Assembly: GCA_017536105.1 (NCBI GenBank)
Contig: JAFXRZ010000012.1
Span: 71,443 to 135,442 of the forward strand
Direction of reading: 5' to 3'
Source: Ruminococcus sp.
Lineage (GTDB): Bacteria > Bacillota_A > Clostridia > Oscillospirales > Ruminococcaceae
Length of the DNA stretch: 64,000 bases
Shown: piece after piece, positions 24,532 to 63,693 of the stretch
Numbering within the stretch: position 1 is the stretch's first letter
How the letters are laid out: the number at the start of each line of letters is the position of its first letter
Notes under the pieces: generated by a model
Told to the model about the DNA's origin: nothing
Seen by the model: only the letters and a program-made list of their open reading frames with translations
Database searches by the model: none
Made by a program: the position numbers and the translations under genes

Positions 24532-24684
24532 TCCCTCAGTAGCTTCCGCACAGGGAGCGGCATATCACCGAGAAGCAGAGCAGGGAAGACAGGGTGAAAA
24601 AAACAATGTCAGGTTTTTGCGGCTGTGGGGGACTATATTATTAGGGTGATACACAAGTATTGCCTTCAAAAAGGGGTGAGGAGC

Positions 24685-25191
24685 TTGAGCGACGAAAAGA
24701 TACTAAAGCTGATGAAACGCAGCGAGAACGAGGGGTTTGAGGCACTTGTCCACCGCTACTCGGGGTATGTGCGGACGATAGCGATATCAAAGCTTGGGTC
24801 GGCTGCGGCGGAAGACGCCGTGAACGGGGTATTTTTCGAGATACTGAAAGCGCTCAGGCGTGAGAAATACGAGATACGTTCGCTGAAAGCGTTAGTCTCG
24901 GTGATAGCCGTGCGGCACTGCTCGGGGCTGTTTTCGGAGCAGATGAAGCAGGAGGCCCTGCCGATAGACGAGCAGTTTTTCGAGCCGATGTACGAGGAAG
25001 CCTACGACCGGGCGGAGCTCATCGCCTCGCTGAAAAGCCTTGGAGAGCCGGACTGCGAGATATTCCTGCGCAAGTATTTCTTGGGACAGACCAGCGCGGA
25101 GATAGGGGCAGCTCTCGGGCTGAAAACGAACACGGTGGATCAGAGGATATCACGCGGACTTCGCAAGCTGCGGGATATGATGGAGGGTTGA
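24685..25191 (+). CDS. ECF-type sigma factor
   Basis: 168 residues. Region 2 is visible as FEALVHRYSGYVRTIAISKL with EDAVNGVFFEILKAL (DxVxxVF pattern), region 4 as SAEIGAALGLKTNTVDQRIS with RGLRKLRDMME. A TTG start at 24685 behind AGGGGTG is preferred; GTG 24625 gives a 188-residue alternative. Four bases separate its stop from a large membrane protein, the standard sigma/anti-sigma arrangement. Confidence 0.88.
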   Translation: MSDEKILKLMKRSENEGFEALVHRYSGYVRTIAISKLGSAAAEDAVNGVFFEILKALRREKYEIRSLKALVSVIAVRHCSGLFSEQMKQEALPIDEQFFEPMYEEAYDRAELIASLKSLGEPDCEIFLRKYFLGQTSAEIGAALGLKTNTVDQRISRGLRKLRDMMEG

Positions 25192-25195
25192 AGCC

Positions 25196-26971
25196 ATGGA
25201 AAAATATTTGTATGATCTTTTCGGCACAGCCTCCGAGGAGGAGCTTGCCGAGTTCGACGACGAGCTTGAAAGCATAATCGGCAGCTGCAAGAATACCGAC
25301 AGACAAATAATCTCCGCTGTGCAGGAGCTTGCAGAGGACGGAGGAGAGCCTGTCAAGCAGCCTGCGACGGCGGTGAAGGTCAGGAGCCTGCTGCCTGCGG
25401 TCATAGCTGCCGCAGTCGCGCTGGTGCTTTTTGCGGGGCTGTTTTTCAAGATAGAGCACAGTGTCAGACGTTCGGCGGAGACTGCTCCCGGGGCAGAAAG
25501 CTCCGAGCAGGAGAGCACCGTCAATGTGACAGGCAAGGAAGCTGCGGAAATGCTGAAAGCCTTTTTCGACGACTATGTCAAGGCGGTCAAGGAAGGCCTC
25601 GTCGGGGCGAATACCATATCCCTGAGAGGCTTCGCTGTGGATCTTTCAAAAACGGATTCATTCAATTACAGGATACTGAAAAATGTCCAGAAAACGCTTC
25701 AGGATATTTCAAGGGACAGAGGCGAGGACAACGATCATCCTCTCCCTGAAAACGGAGAGTTCTATGTGTATATCGCTCCCGACCTGGTCGTTGCCATGGT
25801 GGAATGGCGAGAGAGCAGCGGCTCTGAACCGATCTACCTCAGCGACGAGGGCATGATCGTTGATGGCTCGGGCTTCGGCGGAGTTAAGCTCACAGGCTGC
25901 TACGAGGGCTACAGCTCTCCCAAGGCCACAAAGTCTTCCGACGGCATCTGGGCAGCAGGAGACCTTGCTTCGGCGACAGCACAAAAAAACTTCGATCTTA
26001 TCATTTCAAATGCTCCGAACAACTTTACAAGGCTGAATGTCTTTGACCATGTCAATTTCTCGACCAGCGAGTGCAGCCGCATAAAAACAGGCATCTGCGG
26101 CTATGCCGACGCCTATCCTTTTGTGGAGATATATGTCGTTGCCGAAACAAAGGACGGCCTGCCTTTCGACATCGAAGGCCTTGGCACAAAGATTTACAGC
26201 GGCGGCTATGATGATCTTATCTCTGAGTATTCCTTCACCGACATAAACGGCGGCGACAGGATATCCGGCATCATCTACTGGAACTTCGACCGCGGTTCTT
26301 CCGAAGCTATAGGCAGGATACTCGTTCCTGTTGCAAGAGCCGAAAGCTTCCCCGGAGAGAGCTCAGCCGAAAACAATGAGGACACTGCGAGCTCCTACGA
26401 TAATTCGGAGTGGTCCATCGACCTGAACATCGACCCGATAATGAAAGGGCAGCTCAGCGATCAGGATATCTACTATCTCAGCGGCGGCAGACTTGAATTT
26501 GACTATACAAGCAATTCTGTAAATGACAGCAGTCAGTACACGGTATGCTGGAATACGTATTCGCGTCATGAAAACCACGATATCATTTCCGATAAAGCTG
26601 TCACCTCAAACGAAAAGGAGCTTTTGGAAAAGATGAACAGCTTTGCAGAGTATGTTGCGCTGAGGGCCGATCGTTTGTCGAGAAATAATTTTAAAGATAA
26701 CTCTGCCGCAGGTATAGCGCTCAATTCCACCGCAGCAAACACCGAATATAAAGCCTGCCTTGATAACGGTCTGGCTCTCGGCTTCAAGAAGTCGGAAGAC
26801 GGGGTATATCAGGCCGAGCTTGCAGCCGGCAGCACGCTCTTCACGATCAGCAGTGACGGCAAGCAGGAGATGCTGGGCGAGCTGTACGAATATGTAGATA
26901 AGTACGTCAAAGAAAACTCAGAAAGTGCAGAAACAAGAGAAGTTGATATACCCGTTGACGAACAGAGCTGA
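25196..26971 (+). CDS. Membrane anti-sigma-like protein with large outer domain
   Basis: 591 residues: a short acidic cytosolic segment (1-60), one span (SLLPAVIAAAVALVLFAGLF near 66-86) and a ~500-residue extracytoplasmic part. Position behind an ECF sigma factor and topology suggest a cognate anti-sigma factor that senses something outside, but no zinc-type HxxxCxxC anti-sigma motif is seen. The outer part (EAAEMLKAFFDDYVKAVKEG; VVAETKDGLPFDIEGLGTKI) is unrecognised, with an odd run of Ser/Asn/Asp-rich linkers. Ends at a bidirectional terminator. Confidence 0.65.
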   Translation: MEKYLYDLFGTASEEELAEFDDELESIIGSCKNTDRQIISAVQELAEDGGEPVKQPATAVKVRSLLPAVIAAAVALVLFAGLFFKIEHSVRRSAETAPGAESSEQESTVNVTGKEAAEMLKAFFDDYVKAVKEGLVGANTISLRGFAVDLSKTDSFNYRILKNVQKTLQDISRDRGEDNDHPLPENGEFYVYIAPDLVVAMVEWRESSGSEPIYLSDEGMIVDGSGFGGVKLTGCYEGYSSPKATKSSDGIWAAGDLASATAQKNFDLIISNAPNNFTRLNVFDHVNFSTSECSRIKTGICGYADAYPFVEIYVVAETKDGLPFDIEGLGTKIYSGGYDDLISEYSFTDINGGDRISGIIYWNFDRGSSEAIGRILVPVARAESFPGESSAENNEDTASSYDNSEWSIDLNIDPIMKGQLSDQDIYYLSGGRLEFDYTSNSVNDSSQYTVCWNTYSRHENHDIISDKAVTSNEKELLEKMNSFAEYVALRADRLSRNNFKDNSAAGIALNSTAANTEYKACLDNGLALGFKKSEDGVYQAELAAGSTLFTISSDGKQEMLGELYEYVDKYVKENSESAETREVDIPVDEQS

Positions 26972-57998: not shown

Positions 57999-59972
57999 AT
58001 GGTCAACACTAAGTCCGCTTCAATGCGAATAGCCGCTCTGCTTCTGGCAGTTCTCACCATGTCGCTGTTTCTGGGCGATCTTGATCTCAGCGCCAATGCC
58101 GAGTCGAGCCCGGGATTTTATGTCAGCGGCACGAACATCATGGACGCTAACGGCAATGCGTTCGTGATGAGAGGCGTGAACATCGCACACGCCTGGTATT
58201 CCTCATACACCGAGGATTCCATCAGGGCTGCGGCACAGAACGGAGCCAACACAGTAAGAGTAGTTGTTGCCGACGGCAGCAGGTGGTCAAAGACTTCAAA
58301 GAGCGATCTGAGCAGCATCATTTCGATGTGCAGGGAAAACAAGGTCGTTTGTATCCTTGAAGTCCACGACGCAACAGGCAGCGACAACATCTACGATCTT
58401 GATGCAGCGGTAAACTACTGGATCGAGAACAAGAGCGTCCTTCAGGGCAACGAGAAGTATGTTATAGTCAACATCGCAAACGAATGGTACGGCTCCTGGA
58501 ACGGTTCCTCCTGGGCAGAGGGCTACAAGACAGCGATAAAGGCTCTCAGGAACGCAGGCATCAGCAATATGCTTATGGTGGATTGTGCCGGCTGGGGACA
58601 GTATCCCGATTCCATAAAATACTACGGCAGGGAAGTATTCAATGCCGACAGCCAGGCCAACACCGTTTTCTCTATCCATATGTATGAGTATGCAGGCGGA
58701 AATGCCAATACCGTCAGGACCAATATCGACAACGCCCTCGGCATAGGTGTGCCGGTAGTGATCGGCGAGTTCGGCGGACAGCACACCAACGGCGACGTTG
58801 ACGAAGCAACCATAATGAGCTACTGCACACAGAAGGGCGTAGGCTATCTCGGCTGGTCATGGAAGGGCAACAGCTCCGACCTTGCATATCTCGATATTGC
58901 AAACGACTGGTCGGGCTCATCCCTCACTTCCTGGGGCAATACCCTTATTAACGGCAGCAGCGGTATTAAGGCAACATCCAAGACCTGCACGATCTTTACC
59001 GGCGAAACTCCTGCGGACAGCTCGAGCGAAGACAGCTCAGAGGTCAATGACAGCTCCTCCGAGACAGCTTCCGACACAAGCTCCGAAACAGACAACAGCA
59101 GCGAATATGTTTCGTTATTCTGGGGAGAGGGTTCTGCCGGAGCATGGGGTCAGGCAGTATCTGTAATGACCTCCAAGAACGGAGGCTCCTTCGATGCTTC
59201 AAACATCAAGCCCGGCGGACATTTCTACGTTGAATACACAAGCAGCGACAAGGAACAGATCGAGCTTATCCTGCAAAGCTGGTCCGGCGGTGAAGGCTGG
59301 GCTAAGGTCTGGGCTTCCGAATACGGCAGCGCAAACGGACATCACTTTGCCAAGTTCTCCTATGATGACTGCGTAAGCGCGTTCCGCAGCTCCAACTTCC
59401 CGGGACTTCTCGACAAGCTCTATGTGGGCTGCAAGACTGTGGGCGCAACGGTATATTCCGTATGCTACGACTACGGCACAGGCAGCACCGATACCGACAG
59501 CTCCTCCGAAGTCATCCCCGACAGCAGCTCCGCAGCTGAAAGCACAGCAGAGTCCGCAGCAGACAGCACCTTGGAGACAGAGAACGAAGGCGATCCTTAT
59601 GTGTCCCTGTTCTGGGGCGAGAGCTCTGCCGGAGCATGGGGTCAGCCTGTATCGGTAATGACATCCAAGAACGGCGGTCCCTTCGATGCGGCAAACATCA
59701 CAAGGGGCGGATACTTCTACGTTGAGTATTCAAACAGCGATCAGAAGCAGATCGAGCTGATACTCCAGAGCTGGTCAGGCGCAGAAGGCTGGGCTAAGGT
59801 CCAGGCATCTGAGTACGGCAGCGCCAACGGTCATCACTTTGCAAAATTCTCATACGATGACTGCGTAAGCACATTCGGCAGCTCGTATTTCTCCGGGTAT
59901 CTTGACCAGATCCATGTGGGCTGCAAGAAGGATACTACCACCGTATATTCGGTTTGTTACTGCTATCCGTGA
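57999..59972 (+). CDS. GH5_8-type endo-beta-mannanase with two C-terminal modules
   Basis: 657 residues. Signal peptide (RIAALLLAVLTMSLFLGD, cut near 35), then a GH5 barrel of the type seen in bacterial mannanases (PGFYVSGTNIMDANGNAFVM, RGVNIAHAWYSSYTEDS), acid/base Glu162 in NIANEWYGSWN, and nucleophile Glu257 in VVIGEFGGQHTNGD, WSWKGNSSD. Ser/Glu-rich linkers separate two ~120-residue modules (369-490 and 533-657) that share SLFWGExSAGAWGQ, IELILQSWSG, EGWAKV and GSANGHHFAKFSYDDCVS: likely a carbohydrate-binding family. No dockerin or anchor. GAAAGGA precedes ATG. Confidence 0.88.
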   Translation: MVNTKSASMRIAALLLAVLTMSLFLGDLDLSANAESSPGFYVSGTNIMDANGNAFVMRGVNIAHAWYSSYTEDSIRAAAQNGANTVRVVVADGSRWSKTSKSDLSSIISMCRENKVVCILEVHDATGSDNIYDLDAAVNYWIENKSVLQGNEKYVIVNIANEWYGSWNGSSWAEGYKTAIKALRNAGISNMLMVDCAGWGQYPDSIKYYGREVFNADSQANTVFSIHMYEYAGGNANTVRTNIDNALGIGVPVVIGEFGGQHTNGDVDEATIMSYCTQKGVGYLGWSWKGNSSDLAYLDIANDWSGSSLTSWGNTLINGSSGIKATSKTCTIFTGETPADSSSEDSSEVNDSSSETASDTSSETDNSSEYVSLFWGEGSAGAWGQAVSVMTSKNGGSFDASNIKPGGHFYVEYTSSDKEQIELILQSWSGGEGWAKVWASEYGSANGHHFAKFSYDDCVSAFRSSNFPGLLDKLYVGCKTVGATVYSVCYDYGTGSTDTDSSSEVIPDSSSAAESTAESAADSTLETENEGDPYVSLFWGESSAGAWGQPVSVMTSKNGGPFDAANITRGGYFYVEYSNSDQKQIELILQSWSGAEGWAKVQASEYGSANGHHFAKFSYDDCVSTFGSSYFSGYLDQIHVGCKKDTTTVYSVCYCYP

Positions 59973-60181
59973 TAAGGGCGGCAGATCACAAAGCCAAATC
60001 CGATCCCTACCATAGAAGCGCGGCTCCGCGCAGAAAGCCCATCTCTGACGGCTGTCAGCGGTGGACTTTTTGTTTATGCGTAAATTATATGTTAGTTCGG
60101 CAGCCGGGGCAGCGGACTATGTTTTGTGAAATGTCACTATATAAAAAAACAATAAAGCCCGAAATTCTCCAAATAGCGTAA

Positions 60182-60210
60182 TTGACGGGTTTTGCGCGGT
60201 GTGGTATAAT
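60182..60210 (+). promoter_or_regulatory. sigma-A promoter for module-bearing membrane protein
   Basis: TTGACG (60182-60187), 17 bp, TATAAT (60205-60210), 57 bp before the start. Separate from the mannanase promoter; no convincing terminator lies between (GCGCGG/CGCGC hairpin near 60027 only). Confidence 0.87.
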
Positions 60211-60266
60211 ATTATATGCTTAAAGTATTAACAAATCTTATAATGAAAACAAAAAGGAGAAGGATA

Positions 60267-61439
60267 ATGAAAAAAGCATTGGCTATGCTCATGGGAGCTG
60301 TGGCTGCGATGGCTTTCAGCGTTTTTTCGGCAGCAGCTGCGGATGTTGAGATCGACACCAAAACGGCAGTCGAGACTTCGGACGGCGTTTCCTTTACCGT
60401 TAAGTCAAATAAGCTCGCCGCTTCACAGCTCAAGGAAGATTCGACTATCACCGTGACCTGTGACGGAGCAGAGGGTGACGAGAGCCCTGCAAAGCTCGTC
60501 CTTGATTACTGGGATGCAGCTTCTTCGGAAAATCTCAGTATCGGCGAACCTGCTTCTGTGGAAGTGGCAGCAAGCGAGTATTCGGACGGCAAGGCTGTAT
60601 TTACATACGCAGATATCAAAGCAGCCCTTGGCGACACCGACCTTTCCCTGGTCTATGCAATGGATGTTTCCGCGGCTTCCGGCTCGGCATTCACCTGCAC
60701 GGGCGTTCAGGCAGCAAATGTTTATTCCGAAGCCGAAATGGCTGAGAACGGCATAAACCGCACCATCTGGGTACACCCCAAGACCCCTTCGACAAGCGAG
60801 AACTGGGGACAGACTCTTACAGTCAGTGTGGATCAGTTCGACACCAGCACACTTACCCCCAACTCTTACGTAGTTGCACTTTACGAGACAGATGCAGTTG
60901 ACGAGCTGCCCGCATCGCCTGTTGAGTTCATCCTCCAGAGCACGGACGATGACGTTTCTCCCAAGGCAAAGAAGGGAACTGTATGGGCTAAGGTATCTCC
61001 CGAGATGTTCACCAACACCTTCGCTTATTTCAACTATGATACTATCGTTGATGCCTACGGTATCGATGATTTCAGCTGCGTTTCCGTAGCCTATGTCGGA
61101 GACACCGGCAAGCACGCAGTTACCTGCACCGATCTGTTCGTATTCAACTGCAAGACCCTTGCACCTGCCGTACCCGAAGAGCCCGAGGAAAGCTCCAAGG
61201 AAGAGACAACGACGACCGCTGCCCCTGCTCCTGCTGCAGCTCCCGAGGAGACCACTACCACCGCAGCATCCAGCTCCTCCGACAGCAGCTCATCTTCCCT
61301 CGGCAGCAACGTGATTTTCATCGTTATCGGCGTTGTTTCCGGTATCGTTATCGCCATAGTTGCACTGTATGTCTTCCTCGGCAAGAAGAGCAAGGAGACC
61401 TACGATGTCAACAGCCACAAGTTCGTAAACAAGAAATAA
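60267..61439 (+). CDS. Membrane-anchored carbohydrate-binding-module-like protein
   Basis: 390 residues from ATG 60267 (AAGGAGAAGG upstream). Signal peptide (ALAMLMGAVAAMAFSVFSAA), a first beta module (25-165; LDYWDAASSENLSIGEPASV), a second (about 175-305) that aligns with the mannanase modules (NWGQTLTVSVDQFDTSTL, PVEFILQST, GTVWAKV, FAYFNYDTIVDAYG, VSVAYVGD), a Thr/Ala/Pro/Glu/Ser linker, a C-terminal span (IFIVIGVVSGIVIAIVALYV) and the tail KKSKETYDVNSHKF. A surface glycan binder held on the membrane is inferred. Confidence 0.78.
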   Translation: MKKALAMLMGAVAAMAFSVFSAAAADVEIDTKTAVETSDGVSFTVKSNKLAASQLKEDSTITVTCDGAEGDESPAKLVLDYWDAASSENLSIGEPASVEVAASEYSDGKAVFTYADIKAALGDTDLSLVYAMDVSAASGSAFTCTGVQAANVYSEAEMAENGINRTIWVHPKTPSTSENWGQTLTVSVDQFDTSTLTPNSYVVALYETDAVDELPASPVEFILQSTDDDVSPKAKKGTVWAKVSPEMFTNTFAYFNYDTIVDAYGIDDFSCVSVAYVGDTGKHAVTCTDLFVFNCKTLAPAVPEEPEESSKEETTTTAAPAPAAAPEETTTTAASSSSDSSSSSLGSNVIFIVIGVVSGIVIAIVALYVFLGKKSKETYDVNSHKFVNKK

Positions 61440-61453
61440 TAAACAGAACGACA

Positions 61454-61487
61454 AAGAGCAGGCCTGAAAAAGCCTGCTCTTTTTTTG
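61454..61487. terminator. bidirectional terminator
   Basis: AGAGCAGGC / GCCTGCTCT stem, T7 on the plus side and T-rich on the minus side, between two convergent genes. Confidence 0.93.
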
Positions 61488-61492
61488 TTGTT

Positions 61493-63109
61493 TCAGAACT
61501 CTGTCCAGCTTGTCTGCATATCGGGGGTCTGCCAATATGAAAAATCTCTGTAGATCAGATCGGCATACATATACACAAGCAGCTCATCGCCGCAGTTCAC
61601 CGTCAATTCGACCTGATGTACAGCCGGATCTTTTTGGTTATAAGCGTCTATCTCTCTCATGATAAGGGCGATGTTCTCGTTTATCGCCTCGTCATCTCTT
61701 TCCGGAAAGCCCAGCCGGATATGCAGGGTGCTGCCGGCGGCAGAGGAGCTTACGTCCAGATTTACTTCAACATCCTCCGCTGTAACTTTCTTTATCGATG
61801 CTTCCGGTTTTTCAAGATCGGGAACTGCGGCCCTGTTTTGGAGAAGGGAAATGCACTCGGGGAAGTCCGGCAGCTCCATGATATCCGATTCGGATTCAAG
61901 GATCACAGCACCTGCCGAGTTTACAATGACCTCGTTGTACTTTTTCATAGAGGAGATCATGCTCAGATCTTCAGCTTCGTATCTCAGAGTGTTTCGGGCG
62001 ATCCGCTTTGCATATATTGAGGCTTTGCCCTCCGGTTGTGATCTTATTGTGAGCTTCAGACAGTTATTTTCCTCATTATACTCGCAGTTATCAACGCTGA
62101 CGCCTTTCTCCGCAAGCCTGCGGGTAAGGATATCTGTATCTGACGGGGTATCGTCGGGGTATTTTGCCTCAACGTCCGCCAGCTTTTGCTCGGTGGAAAC
62201 GAGCCTTGTTTCCAGCAGGCGTCTGCCTTCTTTATCAACAACATCGAGGTCGCGGGCTGTTTTGATAACAGCATCTGTCATTGACCTTGCAAGCTCTTTG
62301 TAATTGTCGGAGAAGAAGACGTTTGAGGTCTCGCTTGTGACCGAACCGACTTTTACGATACAGCTCGGCATAGATACGATATTGAGCACCATATCCTGCT
62401 CAGGATGATCGGGATATCCCTTTTTCACACTGCTGCCGGTCATCCCGGCTTCTTCCATTGCGGAGACGATATTCTCTGCAAGCACTTTGTCCGGCTCGGG
62501 TCTCGAGCTGTGTATCCAGGCTGTGCAGCTGTCGTCGCTGCCCGACCTGTTCAGCGAGATGAACATATCCGCTCCGTAGAACTCAGCCTTCCTGCAAATA
62601 TCATCCACGGTGTTGAAGCTGTCATCCTCGCGGCTCAAAATCACTTTCACTCCCCGGGCTTCAAGATCGCTTTTCAATTCCAGCGCAAGGCAAAGGTTGT
62701 CGTCCTTTTCGGCACGAATGATCTCTCCTGTTTCCTCATCGACAAGAGTCTGACCGTTGTCTTCACCGCCTTTGCCGGGGTCGATGAAAACGCTGAACTG
62801 CTGGGTGCCTTCTGTCCATTCGCCCCATTGATCCACGGCTTTCTTTGCGATATCTTTCTCGTTCTCAGGCTCTGCTCTCTTGCCTGCCATGTGTGTGCCT
62901 ACCACAAAGGCGCTGATACCTATGGCAGCAGCCAGAACTGCCGCAGCTATGCCGATGTTCTTTCTTTTGAGCTGTGCAGGCCTTGTGGTCTTTGTATTTT
63001 TTTCTCCTTCATTTTTTTGCGGCTCGTCCGCAGCTTCGACGACCCTTTGCATCAAGGTCTCGTCCGGGGCGAGCTGTGATCTTATAGAACGGAATATATC
63101 TCTATTCAA
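61493..63109 (-). CDS. Membrane protein with pseudo-amidase outer domain (candidate anti-sigma)
   Basis: 538 residues from TTG 63109. A 50-residue cytosolic part, one span (NIGIAAAVLAAAIGISAFVV, 51-70), then an Amidase_3-like fold (106-285): FIDPGKGGEDNG, LALELKSDLEARGVKVILSR, ADMFISLNRSG and SCIVKVGSVTSETSN. The zinc His positions are Lys113 and Asn187, and the catalytic Glu position is Lys253; Glu134 remains. It should therefore bind but not cut peptidoglycan. The last 250 residues are unrecognised. It overlaps the sigma-factor gene by 8 bp, the usual anti-sigma position. Confidence 0.75.
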   Translation of the reverse strand: MNRDIFRSIRSQLAPDETLMQRVVEAADEPQKNEGEKNTKTTRPAQLKRKNIGIAAAVLAAAIGISAFVVGTHMAGKRAEPENEKDIAKKAVDQWGEWTEGTQQFSVFIDPGKGGEDNGQTLVDEETGEIIRAEKDDNLCLALELKSDLEARGVKVILSREDDSFNTVDDICRKAEFYGADMFISLNRSGSDDSCTAWIHSSRPEPDKVLAENIVSAMEEAGMTGSSVKKGYPDHPEQDMVLNIVSMPSCIVKVGSVTSETSNVFFSDNYKELARSMTDAVIKTARDLDVVDKEGRRLLETRLVSTEQKLADVEAKYPDDTPSDTDILTRRLAEKGVSVDNCEYNEENNCLKLTIRSQPEGKASIYAKRIARNTLRYEAEDLSMISSMKKYNEVIVNSAGAVILESESDIMELPDFPECISLLQNRAAVPDLEKPEASIKKVTAEDVEVNLDVSSSAAGSTLHIRLGFPERDDEAINENIALIMREIDAYNQKDPAVHQVELTVNCGDELLVYMYADLIYRDFSYWQTPDMQTSWTEF

Positions 63110-63602
63110 AGTATTCGCCCTCCAATCTCTTTTTCAGCATCTTTCTTGCACGGGACAGCCGCATCTTGACAGCTCCCGCACTCAGCCCGAGGACATCAGC
63201 GATATCCTTCTCGGTCATCTCCTCAAAGTAGTACAGCCACACAGGCACTCGGTATTTCTCCTTAAGCGAACGCACGGCAGTATAGACCTCGTTCTCCTCC
63301 TTCGAGAGAAATTCCACTGTCAGCTCCTCGCCGGCCTTCTCCTGCTTGTCCACCCGGGTGTTCCAGATGCTTTTGTTCGATCTTCTGCAAAGGTTGAGGG
63401 TAGTGCGGACGAGCCATGCACGCAGAGCCTGCTCGTTGGGGCACTGCGGCTTCTTTCGGAAATAGGTCAGGAAAACTTCCTGGAAAACGTCGTCAGCCTC
63501 GCTTTTCAGCCGAAGCTGGGACACGGCAAGCCCATAGACGGTCTGCTTGTAGAGCTCCATTGCTTCGTCAAGCGACGGAGCGAATATTTCCGTTTCGCGC
63601 AT
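63102..63602 (-). CDS. ECF-type sigma factor
   Basis: 166 residues from ATG 63602 behind AGGAGGTGAG; the longer frame to 63674 is not needed. Region 2: YGLAVSQLRLKSEADDVFQE with VFLTYFRKKPQ; region 4: MTEKDIADVLGLSAGAVKMR and LSRARKMLKKRL, the recognition helix. The region 2-4 linker is long (about 70). It overlaps the pseudo-amidase gene, so the two are co-expressed. Confidence 0.93.
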   Translation of the reverse strand: MRETEIFAPSLDEAMELYKQTVYGLAVSQLRLKSEADDVFQEVFLTYFRKKPQCPNEQALRAWLVRTTLNLCRRSNKSIWNTRVDKQEKAGEELTVEFLSKEENEVYTAVRSLKEKYRVPVWLYYFEEMTEKDIADVLGLSAGAVKMRLSRARKMLKKRLEGEYFE

Positions 63603-63693
63603 TTCTCTCACCTCCTGTAATAAGATCGCTCCAAAGAGCCGAAAGGTAACAGTTTTTGAAAAAATTTCAAGCAAAAGGCATTATCCTTATTGT

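Follow-up and report, generated by a model that had tools for sequence, protein, structure and literature searches.

Whether a membrane protein that has lost the chemistry of a cell wall enzyme can serve as the sensor of an alternative sigma factor is the question raised by a two-gene locus of Ruminococcus sp. The locus lies at 61493-63602 on the minus strand of a stretch of 64,000 nucleotides, hereafter called the window (assembly GCA_017536105.1, contig JAFXRZ010000012.1, forward-strand positions 71,443 to 135,442). It consists of two adjoining open reading frames (ORFs), one for an extracytoplasmic function (ECF) sigma factor and one for a membrane partner whose outer part carries an amidase fold stripped of its active site. 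Our analysis makes it fairly probable that the pair is a probably self-activating sigma/anti-sigma module of two genes, with a dead copy of an amidase encoded beside pyrB as its wall-sensing outer part.

The sigma gene (63102..63602, minus strand) encodes sigma-70 regions 2 and 4, and no region 3 family was matched, as in ECF factors; both Pfam and the NCBIfam sigma70-ECF family were matched above cut-off (TIGR02937, 75.7 bits versus a cut-off of 42.9). The partner, a putative anti-sigma factor of 538 amino acids (61493..63109, minus strand), is read from a TTG start in an intact frame; an overlap of 8 nucleotides with the sigma gene bears out the initial annotation on that point, and this overlap and one hydrophobic segment identify a membrane protein that spans the membrane once and is encoded together with the sigma factor. 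All parts of the partner lie on the minus strand. Residues 1-52 (62954..63109) form an N-terminal tail that is probably the sigma-binding segment, given its likeness to the N-terminal segments of other partners; two short helices were predicted at residues 3-12 and 17-27, with a predicted local distance difference test score (pLDDT) of about 40-50, and a difference in charge would fit a tail in the cytosol. The transmembrane (TM) helix (residues 53-73, 62891..62953) was assigned from sequence and charge, the model showing a helix at 45-73. Then come the pseudo-amidase (residues 102-290, 62240..62806), delimited by profile match and model, and a C-terminal region of unassigned fold (residues 301-538, 61496..62209). 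In 294 genomes the latter gave no convincing relative, only three short weak matches, two of which were ordinary amidase tails (L085 and L178); the protein database returned it alone, the other ECF partners contained nothing like it, and its single-sequence model (mean pLDDT 45) was too poor for a structure search. The final 230 residues or so are evidently new, having no convincing relatives in the searches made. As a whole, the pair is organised like an ECF sigma factor and its anti-sigma factor, an arrangement in which the partner would bind the sigma factor and transmit a signal. The NCBIfam model NF052375, 'anti-sigma factor', was matched weakly (15.2 bits versus a cut-off of 100), and like weak matches occurred in the partners of loci L137, L138, L140 and L143.

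The outer domain matched Pfam Amidase_3 (PF01520) over residues 107-282 with 69.4 bits for a cut-off of 27, and block pLDDT values across residues 101-290 of the predicted structure ranged from 66 to 96. It was aligned with 25 homologues, namely 24 best matches and one second match, from 24 genomes. One of the three ligands of the His-Glu-His zinc site is retained: Lys113 (62771..62773) replaces the first His and Asn187 (62549..62551) the second, both positions being His in 25/25 homologues, and Glu134 is kept, as in 25/25 homologues. The catalytic Glu is replaced by Lys253 (62351..62353), at a position occupied by Glu in 18 homologues, Asp in six and Asn in one. Eighteen further database relatives showed H, H and E at the three replaced positions. 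In CwlD, the available part of PMC8496864 describes zinc held by His49, Glu65 and His133, with Glu199 as the catalytic residue, and function abolished by each of the substitutions H49A, E65A and E199A; according to the family alignment, the equivalents of H49, H133 and E199 are lost in the window protein. Profile, model and alignment concur in confirming the earlier claim of an Amidase_3 fold in which both zinc His and the catalytic Glu are replaced. The replacements extend further, since of the 44 columns that at least 90% of the homologues conserve, 15 were changed (the two His and 13 others) and 29 kept, as compared with zero to seven changes when each of 24 homologues was taken in turn; some of the changed columns are near neighbours of the active-site motifs along the sequence, an argument against muropeptide binding of an unaltered kind. 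As a separate observation, the homologues with Asp or Asn in place of the catalytic Glu (L089, L092-L095, L098 and L100) have kept their zinc ligands, and their activity may be altered.

The origin of the amidase part could be traced. The best homologues were found in 24 of the 30 genomes searched and were mostly membrane amidases of 280-400 amino acids; identity to the window domain was 33-41% in 23 of the 24 matches and 29% in the remaining one. At 18 of 25 loci the neighbour of the amidase was a gene for aspartate carbamoyltransferase (pyrB), and some of the remaining loci were cut by contig ends; Pfam confirmed three of the pyrB genes, and tblastn with one of those three confirmed the rest. 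The likeness continues beyond the domain into the tail of these amidases, up to about residue 305 of the window protein. The amidase part has descended from a membrane amidase encoded beside pyrB in Ruminococcus. These amidases (L081-L104) provide the source of the fold and the same tail after it, but differ from the window protein in having kept their zinc ligands and in lacking a sigma-type N-terminal tail, and no ECF sigma match was found in the flanks of their loci (up to 1.5 kb, some ending at contig ends).

Close relatives of the sigma factor were found in four of 150 genomes, G031, G001, G035 and G002, with identities of 74, 67, 68 and 59%, respectively (57-73% by BLAST). Each of these four sister sigma genes is followed by a gene for a membrane partner with a related N-terminal segment, and an 8-nucleotide overlap from a TTG codon recurs at all four (L137, L139, L140, and L138 with an equivalent TTG). 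These sister pairs make an anti-sigma role of the window partner likely. Their outer parts gave no amidase match in profile searches, and the five outer domains were mutually unrelated by BLAST at 1e-4, a threshold that leaves room for remote fold kinship. Unrelated outer domains behind close sigma factors and related N-terminal tails imply that the outer domain has been swapped onto a constant module. In a tree of 111 ECF proteins the window sigma factor fell in a five-row clade (support 96/87), itself within a nine-row clade (99/97) that also holds L141, L142, L144 and L145. At 50-80% sigma identity, an outer domain was shared in 0 of 10 pairs of the five-row group versus 110 of 159 other pairs, the pairs not being independent; exchange of outer domains appears unusually fast in the ECF clade of the window. 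A profile of the N-terminal tail was also tried and was set aside: its five strong matches were all rows of its own alignment, and its weak tail of matches lay mostly over hydrophobic segments.

A second dead wall enzyme was found in one sister branch of the same clade. The partners at L144 (214-2580, minus strand, genome G035) and L145 (2955-5219, plus strand, genome G033) carry a class B sortase domain, which NCBIfam matched at 1.3e-15 and 1.4e-13, respectively, both under the curated equivalog cut-off; compared by sequence with solved sortase B structures, L145 gave a best value of 1.2e-7. The catalytic His is replaced by Lys in L144 and by Arg in L145, and the catalytic Cys by Asn in both, whereas both residues are kept in 19/19 further sortase loci that were taken from related genomes and aligned, these being the best matches of a longer list covering 104 of 150 genomes. 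L145 further has Gln at a conserved Arg of sortases, which we take to be their third catalytic residue. A PASTA domain scored above cut-off in L144 and fell slightly short of it in L145 (23.0 versus 23.2 bits). Of the three stretches compared between the two proteins, conservation is highest in the dead sortase (109/189 identical residues, against 172/349 in the stretch before and 74/197 in the stretch after), a pattern expected from a retained binding function. The combination of dead sortase and PASTA evidently arose independently in this branch. The presence of both a dead amidase and a dead sortase in a single ECF clade suggests recruitment of copied housekeeping wall enzymes as sensors. 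A broader proposition, which we put forward tentatively and hold with less confidence than the reading of the pair itself, is that one Ruminococcus ECF clade repeatedly captures copies of wall enzymes of the host cell (pyrB-linked amidase; sortase B with PASTA) and keeps the fold, its chemistry lost, to serve an anti-sigma factor as outer domain, each pseudoenzyme reading the substrate or partner of its housekeeping counterpart.

The frequency of such partners was estimated in 12 related genomes, in each of which the sigma region 4 family was matched 9 to 30 times, some of these matches being to genes other than ECF ones. From the matches listed, 101 ECF places were chosen and 100 examined, 98 having a downstream ORF. 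At 87 of these 98 loci the next ORF encoded at least 200 amino acids with exactly one predicted TM segment; that such a partner is usual supports the sigma/anti-sigma reading of the window pair. Overlaps of 4 nucleotides (53 loci) and 8 nucleotides (17 loci) were counted with the start chosen as the codon nearest a 4-nucleotide overlap, which biases the counts that way. Pfam assigned DUF4367 to 12 of the 87 partners, DUF4179 to 10 and zf-HC2 to two, and found serpin, beta-propeller, DUF3221 and FG-GAP once each. Among ECF partners in these genomes, dead wall enzymes that can be recognised are evidently rare, and both kinds fall in the clade of the window, a clade reached via the window sigma factor and hence a sample drawn differently from the 87 partners. 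Two ECF partners deserve separate mention: that at L270 (1336-2868, minus strand) has a serpin domain (4.3e-58, residues 149-509) and is perhaps a protease-sensing anti-sigma factor, and that at L308 (486-2867, minus strand) has a beta-propeller domain (3.4e-18).

A candidate autoregulated ECF promoter, GTTACCTT-N15-GATCTT, precedes the sigma gene at 63622..63650 (minus strand), in the approximately 400 bases that the window holds upstream of the sigma start. Identical elements at identical spacing were found upstream of the sigma genes at L137, L138 and L139, and the promoter regions of L144 and L145 have GTTACTT in common with the motif, the second element being absent. The exact motif occurs once in the whole window, as this candidate promoter; with two mismatches, 10 matches were found versus 3.7 expected.

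On this basis, the N-terminal tail would hold the sigma factor at the membrane, and the outer part, a dead copy of the pyrB-linked amidase joined to the new C-terminal region, would meet, or cease to meet, a wall-linked target; the partner would then be cut by regulated intramembrane proteolysis, and the freed sigma factor would transcribe its own operon and further targets. The anatomy of the pair, the loss of catalytic residues, the origin of the amidase, the turnover of ectodomains and the promoter elements are read from sequence, while sigma binding, wall sensing and proteolytic release are inferred. Gating of the cleavage by the outer domain is proposed by analogy with RsiV, which works in this way.

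Several observations weigh against this model. The pseudo-amidase is a single lineage known from one sequence, and no second pseudo-amidase/ECF pair was seen when the Amidase_3 matches listed for 100 genomes were compared by eye with sigma matches and 15 regions were examined. Likewise, none of the 87 partners held an amidase or sortase according to Pfam, and NCBIfam gave nothing at 1e-5, so that the survey for other such pairs proposed with the initial annotation returned none in the parts searched (100 genomes and 87 partners). Pfam did not report the sortase of L144 or L145 even at E 10; as it was blind to these domains and NCBIfam scored them under cut-off, the scan of 87 partners could miss other dead enzymes. 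The N-terminal segment, TM included, is 42% identical to that of L137, but identity was 18-26% with seven other aligned partners and only 20-26% at the other three sisters. The promoter motif was not found upstream of the L140 start used, and its exact form gave 12 sites in 12 genomes (three at sister operons) versus nine with the reversed control; a regulon defined by this motif was therefore rejected for want of an excess, and the promoter evidence suggests self-control of the operon rather than a wider target set. Finally, since 13 family-conserved columns beyond the zinc His are also lost, an unchanged muropeptide site in the pseudo-amidase is doubtful. Of the peptidoglycan sensor initially proposed, the dead amidase fold on the membrane partner of an ECF sigma factor stands, on the strength of profile, alignment and sister pairs; a sensor of this kind is plausible, but the proposed binding of muropeptides or wall fragments is a conjecture, and the 15/44 changed columns cast doubt on an unchanged muropeptide site. 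The one Amidase_3 match near a sigma gene, L209 in genome G063, was considered as a second amidase/ECF pair but taken as chance adjacency, because there the amidase gene precedes the sigma gene and comparable amidases of 700 amino acids (L210-L212) have no sigma gene nearby.

The loss of conserved residues beyond the catalytic ones also favours the strongest of the alternatives, in which the pseudo-amidase would be a receptor for a protein (an activator of amidases, a hydrolase of the wall or some other protein that partners amidases) and report on that protein, not on peptidoglycan. Dedicated amidase partners are known, GerS and ActH among them (PDB titles; available part of PMC8496864), and the binding of lysozyme by RsiV is a precedent, but no candidate partner gene adjoins the pair in the window, where the operon consists of two genes up to the hairpin described below; we consider this receptor unlikely, if worth keeping in mind. 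Less likely again is a use of the fold as scaffold for an unrelated ligand, such as a plant polysaccharide or a peptide. It would fit a fibre-degrading life: the convergent neighbours of the pair encode a GH5 cellulase with CBM65 modules and a CBM65 membrane protein, and some sister ectodomains have no wall-enzyme match, e.g. that of L140 with its choice-of-anchor X stretches. However, nine regions around CBM65 homologues in other genomes, several ending at contig ends, gave no match to either ECF sigma factor of the window, and the sister branch carries a dead sortase and PASTA, both wall-related. A decaying domain, the non-functional remnant of a fusion not long past in a module that is either constitutive or silent, is improbable: the lineage is single, with no close relative in the searches made, and 15/44 conserved columns have changed, but the frame of 538 codons is intact, the protein database holds three sequences from 14 contigs, 29/44 conserved columns are kept, and the amidase block is modelled with the pLDDT values given above. 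That the domain still cuts peptidoglycan via another metal site is very improbable, for E134 is kept but the domain lacks both His ligands as well as the catalytic Glu, and CwlD needs each of H49, E65 and E199 (PMC8496864, available part).

The module of sigma factor and wall-sensing pseudo-amidase that we favour can be set beside known systems. RsgI/SigI of Clostridium thermocellum resembles it in that several membrane anti-sigma paralogues respond to different outside substrates (PMC12203970, available part). It differs in that no RsgI N-terminal match was found by Pfam in the window protein up to E 1 and in that the window sigma factor is of ECF type. The outer domains of RsgI proteins are exchangeable. 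In BlaR1 and MecR1, a domain of an enzyme family serves as membrane sensor; BlaR1 retains its reactive serine and signals via a protease and a repressor. In the pair of SigV and RsiV, an ECF sigma factor is coupled to a membrane anti-sigma factor that serves, through its outer part, as receptor for an enzyme acting on the wall, and the binding of lysozyme permits cleavage of RsiV by signal peptidase and then RasP (PMC5014341, available part). Its ectodomain is of DUF4163 and DUF3298, not of an enzyme fold, and neither family was matched in the window protein up to E 1. Among the titles and abstract openings listed by searches of the open-licence literature, none reported an ECF anti-sigma factor that carries an amidase or sortase domain. 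The general plan, an ECF sigma factor with a membrane anti-sigma factor, is already known; the use of dead copies of the organism's own wall enzymes, twice in one clade, is most likely new. If the proposal is true, a route to wall sensors consists in duplicating a wall enzyme, losing its chemistry and fusing it to an ECF anti-sigma stem, and the signals of orphan ECF pairs, a standing open question, may be guessed from the housekeeping enzyme behind each outer domain. In genomes of this kind, a protein annotated as Amidase_3 or sortase need not be an enzyme.

The whole window protein retrieved itself alone in a search of 5.8 billion proteins, among candidates sharing exact words, and no whole-protein relative was confirmed in genome contigs. 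The ABC-F gene of the window is 96% identical to that of Ruminococcus sp. RGIG4809 (L001), a metagenome-assembled genome from roe-deer reticulum, and 86% identical to that of R. albus 8 (L010), and the source is evidently a Ruminococcus near R. albus.

Downstream of the pair, a hairpin at 61453..61482 (no strand assigned; -20.5 kcal/mol, z -4.2) is a probable terminator between convergent genes; as this strong structure parts the pair from the convergent CBM65 gene, the operon is probably limited to two genes. The convergent region (57999-61439, plus strand) encodes a GH5 cellulase with two CBM65 modules and an adjoining CBM65 protein with a C-terminal hydrophobic segment. The CBM65 neighbour was left out of the system because neither of the two ECF sigma factors of the window was matched in the nine CBM65 regions mentioned above. 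The choice-of-anchor X stretches mentioned above lie in the outer domain of the sister partner at L140 (349-1572, minus strand). The window holds a second pair of ECF sigma factor and membrane partner at 24625-26971 (plus strand); its sigma factor is 70% identical to that of L316, and part of the outer domain is common to the partners of these two pairs.
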